In this document: piece by piece, positions 3,932 to 42,913 of the stretch
Numbering within the stretch: position 1 is the first letter of the stretch
How the letters are laid out: every line of letters begins with the position of its first letter
Source: Desulfovibrionaceae bacterium
GTDB taxonomy: Bacteria > Desulfobacterota > Desulfovibrionia > Desulfovibrionales > Desulfovibrionaceae
Assembly: GCA_015709205.1 (NCBI GenBank)
Contig: JACCQO010000021.1
Location: 1 to 59,086, forward strand
Direction: 5' to 3'
Length of the DNA: 59,086 nucleotides
The notes under the pieces: model-generated
The model's input: the letters and a program-made list of their open reading frames with translations, nothing else
What the model was told of the DNA's origin: nothing
Databases searched by the model: none
Position numbers and translations under genes: made by a program

Positions 3932-5298
3932 CCCATACGCGCCCCCTCTTCCGCCTCGTCCTCGCCGCGGCCCTGTGCGTCGCGCTCGCCGTGCCGGCGG
4001 GCCTGACGCTCGCGACGCGCGCCGAGGCGGCCGCCCCCCTGACCATCGACATCTACGGCCCCGGCCAGAGCAAGCTCAAGGTCGCCCTGGCCCAGCCGCT
4101 CTACGGCCCGGACGCGAACGCCACCGCGCCCGTCGAGGCCGTGGACCTGCAGAAGCACCTGGTCCACAACCTGGACTACCTGCCCTTCATCGAGCGCATC
4201 GCCGGGGGGACCATCCTGGGCGGCGACCGGTTGGACGCCTTCTCTGGACCCGATGTGGACTTCCGCCGCTTCCAGCTGGCGGACGCGGACCTGCTCGTGA
4301 CCACGGGCTGGTTCCCGGCCAAGGAGGCCGGTTCGTGGACCGTGGAGCTGCGCGTGTTCCAGGCCTTCACCGGCAAGCTCCTGGTGGGCAAGGCCTACTA
4401 CGACATCACCGGGCCCCAGATCCCCCGCCTGGCGGACAAGTTCTGCGCCGCGTTCATGGAAAAGCTCACCGGCCACGGCGAATTCTTCCTGGCCACGCTG
4501 GCCTTTTCCAAACGCCTCGGCCCGCGCGACAAGGAGCGCAACATTTGGACCGTGGGCGCCACGGGCCGCGACCTGACCCAGGTCACGGACCTCAAGGGGC
4601 TGTCCATGAGTCCGTCCTGGTCCAACGACGGGCGCTACATCATCTTCACGCACCTGGGTGCGCGCTACCATTCCCTGGGCGTGTGGGACCGCGCCACGCG
4701 GCAGACGCACCAGATCAAGTTCCCGGGCAACACGATCATCGGCCCGACCTTCACGCCGGAGAACAAGGTGGCCGTCAGTCTGGCCTCGCGCGGAAATCCG
4801 GACATCTACCTGCTCAACCACATCTTCCGCAAGGAGCAGGTGCTGGTCCAAAACTGGGCCATTGACGTCTCGCCGAGTTTCAGCCATGACGGCACTCGCA
4901 TGGCCTTCACTTCGTCCCGGCTGGGCAATCCACACATCTTTCTCAAGGATTTCACCACCGGCGAGGAGAAACGCGTGACCTTCAACGGCAACTACAACAC
5001 GGATCCGGATCTCTCGCCGGACGGCACGCTGGTGGCCTTTGCCCGGCGCACGTCCGAGGGACACCGGATCTTCGTCATGGACCTGAAGAGCGGCCGCGAG
5101 CGTCAGGTGACCTTCGGCCCGGGCAACGACGAGCAGCCCGCCTTTGCGCCGGACGGCTACTTTCTGGCGTTCACGTCCAATCGCAGCGGCAAGTACGAAC
5201 TCTACCTGACCACGCGCCACGGCGACACGCCGAAAGAGGTGCCCACCGGGCCGGGCGAGGCCAACTTCCCGGCCTGGGGCATGGTGCCGGGGCAGTAG
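3928..5298 (+). CDS. tolB: TolB, periplasmic beta-propeller protein
   Basis: A 456-residue secreted protein. The N-terminal signal peptide has a hydrophobic core at about 8-28 and a likely AEA-A cleavage near residue 35. The N-terminal alpha/beta domain precedes a six-bladed propeller whose blades carry WD40-like DPDLSPDG, SPSFSHDG and QPAFAPDG repeats. TolB binds Pal and is released or captured by TolA. I chose the GTG at 3928 because it overlaps the tolA stop in a GTGA arrangement and begins the signal peptide directly; upstream in-frame sequence is the tolA shadow. The length is close to the usual 430. Confidence 0.92.
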   Translation: MTHTRPLFRLVLAAALCVALAVPAGLTLATRAEAAAPLTIDIYGPGQSKLKVALAQPLYGPDANATAPVEAVDLQKHLVHNLDYLPFIERIAGGTILGGDRLDAFSGPDVDFRRFQLADADLLVTTGWFPAKEAGSWTVELRVFQAFTGKLLVGKAYYDITGPQIPRLADKFCAAFMEKLTGHGEFFLATLAFSKRLGPRDKERNIWTVGATGRDLTQVTDLKGLSMSPSWSNDGRYIIFTHLGARYHSLGVWDRATRQTHQIKFPGNTIIGPTFTPENKVAVSLASRGNPDIYLLNHIFRKEQVLVQNWAIDVSPSFSHDGTRMAFTSSRLGNPHIFLKDFTTGEEKRVTFNGNYNTDPDLSPDGTLVAFARRTSEGHRIFVMDLKSGRERQVTFGPGNDEQPAFAPDGYFLAFTSNRSGKYELYLTTRHGDTPKEVPTGPGEANFPAWGMVPGQ

Positions 5299-5312
5299 TC
5301 CACAAGGAGATC

Positions 5313-5408
5313 ATGAACAGGCTGCTTGACAAGGAAAAATCAATCCCGCTAAAGTTGTTAGTATTATTAGACGTCATAGGGTTGTCACACCCCCCTGATA
5401 TGCGGTAG
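5313..5408 (+). other. Micro-ORF between tolB and pal, 31 codons
   Basis: Fifteen bases after tolB an ATG follows an AAGGAG ribosome binding site (5304-5309) at ideal distance and opens 31 codons before TAG. The peptide has a charged start and a Leu/Val-rich middle (LKLLVLLDVIGL). I do not recognise it. It could be a leader peptide for pal, a tiny membrane protein or chance. A promoter-like element overlaps it. Confidence 0.3.
5326..5355 (+). promoter_or_regulatory. Candidate sigma-70 promoter for pal
   Basis: TTGACA at 5326-5331 is a perfect -35 hexamer; TAAAGT at 5350-5355 is a fair -10 at 18-base spacing. It lies in the AT-rich tolB-pal gap and would give pal a leader of about 115 bases, allowing extra expression of this abundant lipoprotein. 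Confidence 0.4.
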
Positions 5409-24379: not shown

Positions 24380-25603
24380 TTACGAAATTCCGTCTCCGGC
24401 AACCGGCCCGGCCACCTCGATCCGATTCTTCCCCTTGGCCTTGCTGCGGTACATGGCCTGGTCGGCAAGCAGCACGAGTTCGTCCGGCGACGCCAACCCG
24501 CCCGCGGCGGCCGTGGCCACGCCGATGCTCAGCGTGACGAAGGCCGAGGCCGTGGAGGTGCGGTGCGGGATCGCCAGAGCGTCCACGGCGTTCCGGATGG
24601 ACCCGGCCACGGCGGCCGCGCCGTGCGCGTCGGTGTTGGGCAGGAGCATGACGAACTCCTCCCCGCCGTAGCGCGCCGCGACATCCGCACCGCGCCCGCC
24701 GGCCTTCCTGAAGACCGCCGCGACCGCCTTGAGGCATTCGTCGCCGGCCTGGTGTCCGTGCGTGTCGTTGTAGGCCTTGAAGCTGTCGATATCGGCCATG
24801 ATCAGCGACAGCGGCTGCCTGTTGCGCAGCATGCGCTTGTATTCGAGGTTCAGCATCGCGTCGAAGTATCTGCGGTTGAAGATGTTGGTGAGCCCGTCCA
24901 TGTTCGCCAGCGCCTCGATCCGTATGTTCGCCGCGCTCAAATCCTTCTCCATGCGATGCATGTTCAGGATCAGGAACGAGCACGTGACCGCGACGGCGGA
25001 CAGGATCGAGACAAGGATCGCCACGTTCTGCAAGACTTCATGGTTCGTGATGAACAGCACGACGCCATCGTGCGACAGAACGACGGCGATGCGAAACATC
25101 AGGCCGAAAATGGAAAACAGAAGAGAGGTTATGAGCAGCAGATCGGGCTCTCCCAATACGGCGGGCAGATGCCTGACCGCGACGTAGAGAGCCTGGACGA
25201 AAAAAATCGCCACGACGGAGCACAGACAAACGATCCTGAGGCACAGATTGGTCTCCACATAGGTGGCCCACAGAAACGTCAGCGTGAAGGCGGCGAGGAC
25301 CAGCAGATTGACGACGCGCGCCCTGCATTTGGCCCCGGTGAAGATCACCAGGCCCTTCGTGAGCAGGAGCGGCCACAGGACGAGAAGAAAATTCGCCGCG
25401 ATGATCGTGACGAAATCCGGCAAAAGGCCGCGCAGGGAGACCAGGACCCCGCCCATCCCGGCGCTCACGACGCCCCCGGTCCAGTGATGAAACCCCGGGT
25501 AGGCCCTTCGCGCCATCGAATAGTAGACCATGATCCCGGCGAGAACCAGATTGGCCAGCGCGCCGAGCAGCAACATCGTCCGAACATCCAGAAACTCGAG
25601 CAT
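24380..25603 (-). CDS. Membrane diguanylate cyclase (first)
   Basis: A 407-residue protein that should make cyclic di-GMP. The N-terminal half holds about six to seven hydrophobic segments (10-215). A short helix then leads to a GGDEF domain (about 240-400) with an intact GGEEF active site and an RGAD inhibitory I-site five residues before it, so feedback inhibition is likely. The ATG at 25603 has an AGGG site and follows a good sigma-70 promoter. It precedes the OsmC gene on the same strand; the divergent neighbour is a lone PAS protein. Confidence 0.9.
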   Translation of the reverse strand: MLEFLDVRTMLLLGALANLVLAGIMVYYSMARRAYPGFHHWTGGVVSAGMGGVLVSLRGLLPDFVTIIAANFLLVLWPLLLTKGLVIFTGAKCRARVVNLLVLAAFTLTFLWATYVETNLCLRIVCLCSVVAIFFVQALYVAVRHLPAVLGEPDLLLITSLLFSIFGLMFRIAVVLSHDGVVLFITNHEVLQNVAILVSILSAVAVTCSFLILNMHRMEKDLSAANIRIEALANMDGLTNIFNRRYFDAMLNLEYKRMLRNRQPLSLIMADIDSFKAYNDTHGHQAGDECLKAVAAVFRKAGGRGADVAARYGGEEFVMLLPNTDAHGAAAVAGSIRNAVDALAIPHRTSTASAFVTLSIGVATAAAGGLASPDELVLLADQAMYRSKAKGKNRIEVAGPVAGDGIS

Positions 25604-25728
25604 CACGATCCCTGGCCGCACCTGCACTGTTGGAGGTTGCCGCCCACTGTCCGCGCGCGGCAAGGGCACTCCGGCGCACTGCGCTGCCGACGGCCCGATC
25701 CTCTTGATCGGCGTCGTGCCCCCCAGCC

Positions 25729-25923: not shown

Positions 25924-26277
25924 GTGAACAACACCACGCTGACCACCGCCGAGCTTGCCGCCGTGCTGGATCAGGTGCCCGCCGGCATAACCGTCACGGA
26001 CGCCCAGGGGACTATCCTCTACTACAATACGTACTGCACCCGATTCGTGGACAGGAAGCCTGAATATATCGGCCGGAACATCCTATCCTGCCACAACAAG
26101 GAGCAAAGCATCGTCAAGATCAAGCAGATTCTAGCGGACTTGGCGGCGGGGACCTTGGATGAAGTCTACTACGAGACGCAACGGGGCGAGAACAGATTCG
26201 GGGTGACCGTCTCGAAATTCGTCTTTGCGGGAAAAGACGTCGGCCTTATCCAGTGCTTCTCCAAAGTCAACAAATAG
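25924..26277 (+). CDS. Single-domain PAS sensor protein
   Basis: A 117-residue protein that is essentially one PAS domain (QVPAGITVTDAQGTILYYNTYCTRFVDRKPEYIGRNILSCHNK...). The CHN motif near residue 61 resembles PAS domains found next to DUF438-type hemerythrin-like proteins. It starts at GTG with a strong AAAGGAG site; the open frame upstream has no site or domain. With no output domain it probably acts by binding a partner, plausibly one of the two neighbouring diguanylate cyclases, but that is inference. Confidence 0.8.
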   Translation: MNNTTLTTAELAAVLDQVPAGITVTDAQGTILYYNTYCTRFVDRKPEYIGRNILSCHNKEQSIVKIKQILADLAAGTLDEVYYETQRGENRFGVTVSKFVFAGKDVGLIQCFSKVNK

Positions 26278-26608
26278 CCTCGGCCATTGCCGCCCCTTGC
26301 GCGGCAATCGGGAATGCATGGGCGTCGTCCAGGGAACCGCGTCCGACCGGGATTTGTCAGCCTTCTCGGGGGACAGTGACGCGCCGCTCCACCGCGTCTT
26401 CAGCATCTACGCCAGGGGCAGGCCGACAACGTTGGCCAATCCGGCAAAACGATGACTGCTCGCCGTCCCCTGAGCTCCACTCCATCCGGCGCAACCGGGT
26501 GAGGCCCCGCGCGGGAGCCTCGGAGTTCATGCCATGCTCAAATGACATCAGCCTTTATTCGTTCAAGAGCAAGCAAGCCCCCGACAACAGATAGAGCCGC
26601 GCCGACAG
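26278..26608. other. Gap between convergent PAS and cyclase genes
   Basis: 330 bases with no intact gene. ATTGCCGC/GCGGCAAT (26286-26308) may form a terminator-like stem after the PAS gene. A maf-like fragment sits at 26411-26435. Confidence 0.5.
26411..26435 (-). pseudogene. Displaced 3' fragment of maf
   Basis: These 25 bases match 27898-27922, inside the intact maf gene, at 24 positions and in the same orientation. On the minus strand they encode NVVGLPLA, the conserved C-terminal Maf motif. A TAG replaces the following Arg codon, then Met-Leu-Lys faces Val-Leu-Glu. Beyond that similarity fades. It looks like the remnant of an original maf 3' end cut off by insertion of the cyclase-bearing segment. 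Confidence 0.6.
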
Positions 26609-27754
26609 TCACTCAAAAACGACCCTATTGCGTCCGGATTCCTTGGCCTTGTAAAGAGCGGCGTCGGCCCGCTGCATGACCCTCTCGATTGTTGCATCCT
26701 GGGCAGTCAGCATCGTCATGCCGATGCTGACGGTAATCTGAAATGTATCCTGGTTGATCTGGACTTCCATGTTTTCGATTTCACTGCGCAGGCGTTCCGC
26801 AGCCACAATCGCCAGCTCTTGAGACGCCTCGGGCAGGATGACCGCGAATTCCTCTCCGCCCAACCGTCCGAACAAATCCGTTTTCCTCAGAACGTCCTTG
26901 CCTCGAAAAGCCAGCGTCTTGAGGGCGCAATCCCCGCCATGGTGACCACGGGTATCGTTGACGGCCTTGAAATGATCCACGTCAATCATCAGGAATGCCA
27001 AGGAATGATCGTAACGCTTGGAACGAATCAACTCTTGTGCGCCATGCTCGATGAAGGTTCTCCTGTTCAGGATTCCTGTCAACGTGTCGATGGAAGCCAG
27101 TCGGGTCAAATCCTGGTAGAGGAATTCCCACCGCGTGAGGATGTAGCCCGTGATAGCGACCAGCATGGCCAAAGTCTGCATAAGCAAGGTCGATATCTGC
27201 AAAAAATTTGGGTCGACAAGTTTATAGTCGCTCAAGAAGAATATAAATACTCCGCGTATAATTGTGAAAATAGAGCATAGGGCGAGTACCATTCCTGAAA
27301 ATTTTTGCAGCAAAGATGGTCTTGAAGCATAAAAAATCAAGAAAAAGGAAGGAATTCCAAAAGACAATGCAAGCATGATTGACGATATGGATATTATAAA
27401 TGTAACGCTCAATGCATGTATCCATATTAATGACACTTCAAAAATAGCCATAAAAGCAAATAATATTTGTGTCCGCTTTGCAATATTGATGGCAAGAGAC
27501 AACATACAAAGACCTTCAGCAGCGATTCCGCTAACGTAGAGGCTATTGCCGAGATTGAAGGAAAGAATGAATGGAATACTATTGCGAAGCAAGATAAGAG
27601 TCCATCCGATACCTTGCGCAGCCAAACTCACTATGAATAACGTATCATAGCGCAATGCGCGTCGATACATTGCAAATGCTACCAGTATTGCGGCAACGGA
27701 GTTTCCCATTGCCAAGAAGAGAACGATGGTCTTAACGTGAAGAAATTCTGACAT
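26609..27754 (-). CDS. Membrane diguanylate cyclase (second), AT-rich
   Basis: A protein of 381 residues with about seven hydrophobic segments (5-210) and a GGDEF domain (about 220-378) with intact GGEEF and an RKTD I-site five residues before it. It should make cyclic di-GMP under feedback control. The architecture equals the first cyclase, but the sequences differ. Base composition is far more AT-rich than any neighbour, especially 27180-27760, and codon use differs accordingly; this points to recent transfer. No good ribosome binding site precedes the ATG, so the start is less certain. It lies 88 bases behind maf on the same strand and is flanked by a maf fragment. Confidence 0.87.
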   Translation of the reverse strand: MSEFLHVKTIVLFLAMGNSVAAILVAFAMYRRALRYDTLFIVSLAAQGIGWTLILLRNSIPFILSFNLGNSLYVSGIAAEGLCMLSLAINIAKRTQILFAFMAIFEVSLIWIHALSVTFIISISSIMLALSFGIPSFFLIFYASRPSLLQKFSGMVLALCSIFTIIRGVFIFFLSDYKLVDPNFLQISTLLMQTLAMLVAITGYILTRWEFLYQDLTRLASIDTLTGILNRRTFIEHGAQELIRSKRYDHSLAFLMIDVDHFKAVNDTRGHHGGDCALKTLAFRGKDVLRKTDLFGRLGGEEFAVILPEASQELAIVAAERLRSEIENMEVQINQDTFQITVSIGMTMLTAQDATIERVMQRADAALYKAKESGRNRVVFE

Positions 27755-27842
27755 CGTATTGATTTTGTGGATCAGGTCGTCTCGGGTCACCACCAGATGT
27801 GGTGGGGACCTTGCCTGAAACCTACCGCGAATGCACGAATTT

Positions 27843-28487
27843 TCAGTCTTGCCCTGGAATGACAACACCCCAGGATACCAAGACTTCCAGAACACGAGCC
27901 AGGGGCAGGCCGACGACGTTGGTGTAGGAGCCGCACACGTGCTCGACCAGGAAGGCCCCGCGGCCCTGGATGGCGTAGGCCCCGGCCTTGTCCAGGGGCT
28001 CGCCCGTGGCCGCATAGGCCGCGATGACCGGTTCGGGCTGCGCGCCCATGGTCACTTCGGTCTCGGCCCAGAATTCCTCGCGCCGCCGCGCACCCTCCAC
28101 GTCCTGCGGCAGGAACAGGCAGCAGCCCGTGACCACCCGGTGCGTGCGCCGCTCGCCGCCGCACAGCAGGCGCAGCATCTCCCGCGCCCCGGCCTCGTCC
28201 TCCGGCTTGCCCAGGATGCGCCCGTCCGGCGCGACCACCACCGTGTCCGCACCCAGGACCACGGCCCCGGGGCGCGCCGCGGCCACGTCCAGGGCCTTGG
28301 ACCGCGCTGCGCGCAGCGCATAGGCCTCGGGCGGCTCGCCCGGCTCCGGGTCCGGCTCGGCCCCCGGGCTGGGGACCACCTCGAAATCCAGCCCGGCCGA
28401 GGCCAACAGTTCCCGCCGCCGCGGCGAGCCCGAGGCCAGCACCAGTGCGCCGCGGGTCGCAAACGGCCCGAAATTCCGCTCGTCCAT
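27843..28487 (-). CDS. maf: Maf family nucleoside triphosphate pyrophosphatase
   Basis: A 214-residue Maf protein, a house-cleaning enzyme that hydrolyses non-canonical nucleoside triphosphates to monophosphates. It has the LASGSPRRRELL loop (about 17-28), the GADTVVV strand with catalytic Asp, the GKPED segment, and the C-terminal YAIQGRGAFLVEHVCGSYTNVVGLPL motif. An AGGAG site lies about 10 bases before the ATG. The C-terminal 17 residues after the motif may come with the downstream insertion. In Desulfovibrio I recall maf near flgM, as here. Confidence 0.92.
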   Translation of the reverse strand: MDERNFGPFATRGALVLASGSPRRRELLASAGLDFEVVPSPGAEPDPEPGEPPEAYALRAARSKALDVAAARPGAVVLGADTVVVAPDGRILGKPEDEAGAREMLRLLCGGERRTHRVVTGCCLFLPQDVEGARRREEFWAETEVTMGAQPEPVIAAYAATGEPLDKAGAYAIQGRGAFLVEHVCGSYTNVVGLPLARVLEVLVSWGVVIPGQD

Positions 28488-42837: not shown

Positions 42838-42913
42838 GCGGGTGTAGCTCAGTTGGTAGAGTACAAGCTTCCCAAGCTTGGTGTCGCGGGTTCGACCCCC
42901 GTCACCCGCTCCA
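42838..42913 (+). tRNA. tRNA-Gly, anticodon CCC
   Basis: A complete 76-base cloverleaf. The acceptor stem is GCGGGTG (42838-42844) with CACCCGC (42903-42909). The D-arm has AGCTCAGTTGGTAGAGT and the T-arm GCGGGTTCGACCCCCGT. The anticodon loop TTCCCAA is closed by CAAGC/GCTTG, so the anticodon is CCC, reading GGG. The CCA end is encoded (42911-42913). tRNA genes are frequent integration sites, but no integrase or second copy is seen here. Confidence 0.95.

Follow-up and report, generated by a model that had tools for sequence, protein, structure and literature searches.

The window, the whole 59 086-nucleotide stretch analysed, carries a maf gene on its minus strand and, directly behind it, one gene for a GGDEF cyclase that lies between two copies of a short direct repeat. 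Positions 26411-26435 agree with positions 27898-27922, within maf, at 24 of 25 bases in the same orientation and at a distance of 1487 nt, so that both borders of the insert bear 3'-terminal maf sequence as a direct repeat. Translated from the minus strand, both copies encode NVVGLPLA; a stop follows in the 26411 copy, and maf runs on with RVLEVLVSWGVVIPGQD to its stop. The cyclase coding sequence was corrected to start at the in-frame ATG where the DNA match to a homolog from another genus of the family (genome G145) begins. It was the only open reading frame between the repeats with a recognised Pfam family, and no integrase gene was found there. The GC content of the insert was 49%, versus 76% for the maf body. 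The sequence-only reading had described such a repeat with its coding motif and stop, enclosing one cyclase gene of foreign composition with no integrase left, and each of these points was confirmed. A second GGDEF gene (24380-25669) and a small protein with a PAS domain (25924-26277) are encoded just past the displaced maf tail, and a scan of the window for RNA families and tRNAs returned nothing but a tRNA-Gly (ccc) at 42838-42913. The features of the locus are collected in Table 1.

Table 1. Features at the 3' end of maf in the window, listed in the reading direction of maf
Feature	Position	Strand	Basis
maf body, native part up to the crossover region	27921..28487	-	Pfam Maf 2.9e-56; GC3 0.93
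Core NVVGLPLA, attL-like junction (repeat copy 27898-27922)	27897..27920	-	Matches the other copy at 24/25 bases; usual starting point of maf-tail duplications in relatives
maf tail, apparently imported, 17 codons and stop, AT-richer than the body	27843..27896	-	GC3 0.47 vs 0.93, Fisher p=5e-6
Left end (LE), arm-like GGTCCCCACC at 27801-27810	27798..27842	-	LE profile, window outside the seed, E=2.5e-5
Cargo GGDEF protein (diguanylate cyclase by family), 381 aa, N-terminus apparently hydrophobic (by eye)	26609..27754	-	Pfam GGDEF 3e-45; 59% homolog in G145 at the same site
Right end (RE), diverged, GC-shifted half-site; its counterparts in G023 and G047 open with the 3' part of an integrase gene	26434..26519	-	Anchored PSSM
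Core NVVGLPLA, attR-like junction (repeat copy 26411-26435)	26410..26433	-	Repeat identity; uniqueness in window and genome
Displaced, decayed old maf tail with an in-frame stop and one frame shift, ending at the expected stop after ...VPREG	26357..26409	-	Scores against shuffles and random 60-mers

We then counted the repeat pattern with up to three mismatches. It occurred at two sites in the window and at none in 100 dinucleotide shuffles, and the whole 4.25-Mb genome likewise contained two sites, with none for a reversed control pattern. The maf gene itself showed a sharp break in third-position GC content (GC3), which was 0.93 in the 189 body codons, 0.88 in the eight core codons and 0.47 in the last 17. 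Among 50 maf loci evaluated in the same way, 18 had a break with an uncorrected p<0.05, and the window ranked fifth after G020, G002, G183 and G288 and ahead of G298 and G106. In G002, G288, G298 and G106, tail copies or element ends were found behind maf as well. In G020 (L063) and G183 (L087), a strong break was found yet neither a second tail nor an element end was detected behind maf, so a GC3 break alone is no proof of a present insert; these two breaks perhaps mark inserts since lost or decayed. In the window, the attached tail restores the reading frame and gives Maf an intact C-terminus like that of its relatives. The earlier suggestion that the C-terminus may be imported is supported by this composition. 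At the protein level the tail is similar to those of the nearest relatives, a likeness expected if the elements carry a working maf tail, and it still looks imported.

The 53 bases following the 26411 core can still be aligned to the 17 residues of the Maf tail plus the stop codon, provided that an in-frame stop and a single frame shift are tolerated; the alignment score was reached by none of 3000 shuffles and by three of 6000 random 60-mers from the window. The GC content of this displaced tail was 0.65 vs 0.53 for the attached tail. Displaced and attached tails were compared in 14 loci, one of which, G145, was left out of the result. The displaced tail was GC-richer by at least 0.12 in six of the 14 (the window, G106, G002, G138, G285 and G298); G288, G214 and G187 showed about equal values, and in G107, G040, G137 and G109 the displaced tail had the lower one. 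The six GC-richer cases are explained by a single old insertion each, and stacked imported tails may explain those with an equal or lower value.

The architecture was then searched for in other genera of the family, the comparison genomes including none from the window's own genus. The 88 maf loci were picked for additional maf matches, for closeness, by genus or by maf score and are therefore a biased, not a random, sample, in which nine loci had less than 5 kb behind maf. Tail copies or ends were found in 24 of the 88, a count that takes tail copies from the first batch only and includes G026 and G043, whose duplications differ from the others. The first-batch loci with the maf tail repeated behind maf were G145, G156, G202, G214, G288, G106, G040, G137, G109, G298 and G187, with decayed copies in the last three. 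The 37 later loci gave tail copies (E<0.01) in G044, G087, G285, G294, G059 and G138, those in G087, G294 and G059 being weak extra copies beyond the 24; an eight-residue match in the maf locus of G048 was not counted as a tail copy. Ends or tail copies were spread over ten genera among the 88 loci (without G026 and G043), to which G023 and G047 add two. With G026 and G043 set aside, the tail duplications of most loci begin at the same few bases, CAACGT, across several genera. G026 and G043 carry longer maf duplications with no RE, that of G026 starting from codon 103, and G026 possibly reflects a different insertion route at maf. A defence-like block lies between maf and a 330-nt maf duplication in this genome (L071, 3465-15018), with no RE detected, and contains by eye an SNF2-type helicase, a DNA methyltransferase, a Fic protein and a type III restriction-like protein.

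The cyclase homolog of G145 is 59% identical to the window protein and is encoded just downstream of maf among tail copies, which occur at three places around it besides maf itself. The DNA match covers the gene with 69% identity over 1133 nt. Among the matches listed for 200 family genomes, including the window's own, G145 alone had a close full-length homolog, and none was found at E<=1e-55 in 47 further family genomes. Since Maf of the same two genomes is 55% identical, the cyclase value is barely higher and is no proof of recent transfer, and any direction or date given to the movement of the cyclase cassette would be inferred. The sequence-only reading had held that maf-tail copies in relatives lacking the cyclase would count against it. 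Copies of the maf tail were indeed found in such relatives, where they enclose different inserts, and the tail-replacement reading is thus not refuted.

Conserved non-coding ends accompany the tails. Upstream of many extra tail copies we found an RE half-site with the consensus (by eye) CTCCCACACAAGTCCCCAC...GTAAA...TTGACGACAA..GTTAC..TTTTGCCATTCTGATC, then AACGTCGTCGG, and downstream of many tail stops an LE motif, AAAAATCGTACATTCGCGG...CCCCAC. An RE profile iterated from 12 seeds, the window among them, matched behind maf in 16 of the 88 loci at E<1e-4 (10 seed loci including the window, and six new ones). An LE profile built without the window and used at E<0.01 placed an LE directly behind maf in 12 of the 88, seven of them outside the seed, and the window's own LE match begins 2 nt past the maf stop. 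The window RE was scored by an anchored position-specific matrix made from nine other REs with the core excluded. Its predicted place was the top of 118,000 window positions, with a score of 8.5 (next 3.2; the nine seeds score 34-93) that was reached by none of 20,000 shuffles. A nhmmer profile of the RE only, built without the window, gave no match in the window at E<=10, which indicates that the window RE has diverged, apparently by GC drift; taken with the matrix score, the data point to a probable but diverged RE.

Several further sites with these ends were observed. At positions 5080-5353 of the viral contig L142, and in the same DNA in G002 C31, two REs lie about 170-180 nt apart with just a maf tail and an LE between them, apparently an empty cassette present in both a genome and a viral contig. 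In G145, an RE that has lost its maf tail (L057, 11638-11713) follows a ParD-like gene, the partner of which appears to be truncated. In G014 (L137/L146, C434 at 4232), a maf tail and the first part of an LE directly follow a gene that by eye resembles citrate synthase genes, on a contig that has no maf, and this is a possible secondary insertion site.

An integrase was associated with these ends in relatives of the window. A second site on contig C31 of G002 consists of a maf tail, an LE-like stretch and a C-terminal piece of a tyrosine integrase ending in arm-type repeats, followed by another gene, a complete RE, a maf tail and a further RE; 3000 overlapping bases of this contig and the viral contig L142 are identical. 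When the 77-aa integrase piece was searched against 289 family genomes, the top matches were G002 itself, G023, G047 and G048. The G023 integrase is intact, of the tyrosine type and 352 aa long (Pfam Phage_integrase 3.9e-19). On its contig C62, an RE extends over the integrase gene's 3' end and the core (E=1.1e-10) and is followed by a GC-rich, intact maf tail, and on C33, a separate contig that the assembly does not link to C62, maf has an AT-rich tail followed by an LE (E=3.6e-5). In G047 C32, a broken integrase gene runs straight into an RE (1.3e-9), a maf tail and an LE (2.3e-6). Neither G023 nor G047 was in the seed of any profile. The next closest integrase, that of G048 (49%), has no maf tail within about 370 nt behind it.

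The window's genome contained no G023-like integrase at E<=1e-15 among the matches listed, and its eight other PF00589 matches were all on contigs other than the window's. Among the 6361 open reading frames behind maf in the 88 loci, none matched an 11-sequence integrase profile that finds the intact integrases of G023 and G048 and misses the broken pieces in L216 and L144. In 12 genomes searched with PF00589 (11 with tails or ends and the window's own), the nearest match to maf among those listed was 49 kb away, in G288. The catalyst is likely to be a maf-specific tyrosine integrase acting in trans from an autonomous relative such as that of G023. Viral sequences were also searched. Two maf loci were found in viral contigs, neither of which had, by eye, an element at the maf 3' end, and no cyclase was found in viral contigs; the genome contigs scanned contained distant maf genes only. 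One named match among these, together with the gene order, points to Desulfovibrionaceae as the probable family of the window. A 28-residue Maf-tail peptide had no match at E<=1 in phage and plasmid records, a weak test with so short a query.

The cargo behind maf in the different loci included GFA, GNAT, ParD, SnoaL-like, DinB and LysE proteins by Pfam, and three of the nine cargo proteins scanned had no Pfam match. Genes behind maf were compared in 13 pairs across genera; the proteins were more alike than the maf bodies in 10 pairs, and the three less alike were two LysE pairs and one short match. The clearest case was that of the GFA proteins of G288 and G165, which were 92.7% identical vs 47.9% for the maf bodies, and in both genomes the gene precedes a tail copy or RE. 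A 164-aa protein was 79% identical between G138 and G044 vs 61% for maf, GNAT pairs were 66-71% identical vs 46-49%, and a DinB pair 60% vs 48%. In some genomes the GNAT and DinB genes lie past the last detected tail copy and are putative cassette genes there. Integrase-less cassettes with shared cargo thus occur across genera.

Three other origins were weighed against these data. Simple duplication or homologous recombination, in which a circle or fragment bearing a piece of maf integrated with no dedicated ends, would account for tail repeats that are sometimes near-identical (79 of 79 nt in G214), for one G202 copy that reaches upstream of the core, and for the longer duplications of G026 and G043, which lack an RE and fit such recombination. 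The duplications in most other loci, however, start at the shared CAACGT in several genera and are flanked by conserved non-coding ends, and the RE overlaps the integrase gene end in G023 and G047. Because breakpoints are shared and conserved ends stand beside the inserts, we rejected this origin for the window, where we consider it improbable, and kept it as a possible one for G026 and G043. Still less probable is an origin in which the cyclase is a native AT-rich neighbour and the 26411 copy has nothing to do with maf, being a short motif that arose by chance or is kept by selection. The repeat is indeed a conserved coding motif and the window RE is weak by plain profile, but the LE, the RE and the rest of the tail all stand at their predicted places, and the shuffle and whole-genome counts led us to reject a chance origin of the repeat; we give this origin almost no credence.

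Integron gene cassettes form arrays in which small accessory genes of unrelated kinds share a single site, and the GNAT, GFA, LysE, DinB, ParD and SnoaL genes behind maf recall them. An integron-type array with attC sites and an IntI recombinase is nevertheless very improbable here. Of 13 boundaries with an anchored AAC, one had the motif RYYYAAC, and four more boundaries lacked an AAC; the window's own boundary matches neither it nor GTTRRRY. Unlike integron cassettes, the maf units have ends made of phage-type arm repeats and the gene's tail, the boundary motif is mostly absent, and the associated recombinase is the 352-aa protein with a phage-integrase domain. The integrase-type search behind this comparison used the general PF00589 in 12 genomes, and the integron origin was set aside on the boundary motif.

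We conclude that the window very probably contains an integrase-less integrative cassette that replaces the tail of its target gene and works like a cis-mobilizable element; it is old, measures about 1.49 kb from core to core and carries a diguanylate cyclase as cargo. Insertion at the maf 3' end with tail replacement, as the sequence-only reading had proposed, is upheld by the composition break, the conserved ends at both borders (the right one diverged), the readable displaced tail and the same architecture with other cargo in relatives, one of which has an intact integrase gene beside a GC-rich maf tail. In the proposed course of events, an element of about 1.49 kb with its own maf 3' end, the cyclase gene and both recombinase-binding ends would have recombined site-specifically into the 3' end of maf, with the crossover falling within the conserved CAACGTNGTCGG stretch. 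The element's tail (27843-27896) would have completed maf in frame, and the old tail would have been pushed to 26357-26433, where it would now be decaying. Lacking an integrase, the element would probably have been moved by a tyrosine integrase specific for maf that an autonomous relative, for example that of G023, provided in trans; a circular intermediate, catalysis by a G023-type enzyme and help in trans are the parts of this course that we infer.

Phage 21 and e14 integrate at icd, a protein gene. The maf system resembles them, and the dusA family of integrases (PMC4482086), in that integration is site-specific and a conserved protein gene is its target; the site in dusA is at the 5' end, whereas maf is used at its 3' end and the occupants behind it mostly lack an integrase. 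The closest likenesses that we noted are to the ssrA islands of Dehalococcoides and to cis-mobilizable elements (CIMEs) with tandem accretion. The ssrA islands lie in tandem downstream of a single conserved gene, are each delimited by a copy of its 3' end, and include 15 islands without an integration module and an integrase gene whose 3' end overlaps the attachment site (PMC3146451). The maf system likewise has tandem units behind a conserved gene, 3'-end copies, module-less members and an integrase gene end over the attachment site. By that account the Dehalococcoides target is a tmRNA and the integrase of the serine family, whereas here the target is a protein gene and the associated integrase of the tyrosine family, and the first RE lies just 0.17-3.9 kb behind maf in the 16 loci that have one. 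CIMEs, which are described as decayed ICEs or IMEs, keep attL and attR, have lost the integration and transfer genes and form tandem series where their target gene ends (PMC5704250). In the window, attL and attR are both present (the attR side diverged), and integrase and transfer genes are absent. Unlike CIMEs as portrayed there, the maf cassettes are small, often with one or a few genes, and related cargo recurs in different genera, which suggests that the integrase-less form itself travels.

No report of maf as an attachment site was found in the literature searched, the coverage of which was partial and does not prove absence in print. The TIGER/Islander catalogue excludes islands of less than 2 kb and requires an integrase according to its description (PMC12424338), and maf cassettes of this kind accordingly fall outside at least this one large island catalogue. 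An odd 25-base repeat has led to a mapped attachment site whose ends are defined, to a likely recombinase and to a group of integrase-less cassettes. We tentatively propose, at somewhat less than even confidence, that the family maintains an integron-like cassette economy run on a phage-type integrase, in which integrase-less cassettes composed of a maf tail, cargo and an integrase-gene end would enter maf across genera by means of a helper in trans, each insertion giving maf a new tail and leaving the older one as a fossil record. Displaced tails may allow past insertions to be put in chronological order, and the system offers a direct test of whether a phage-type integrase mobilizes small cassettes in trans.
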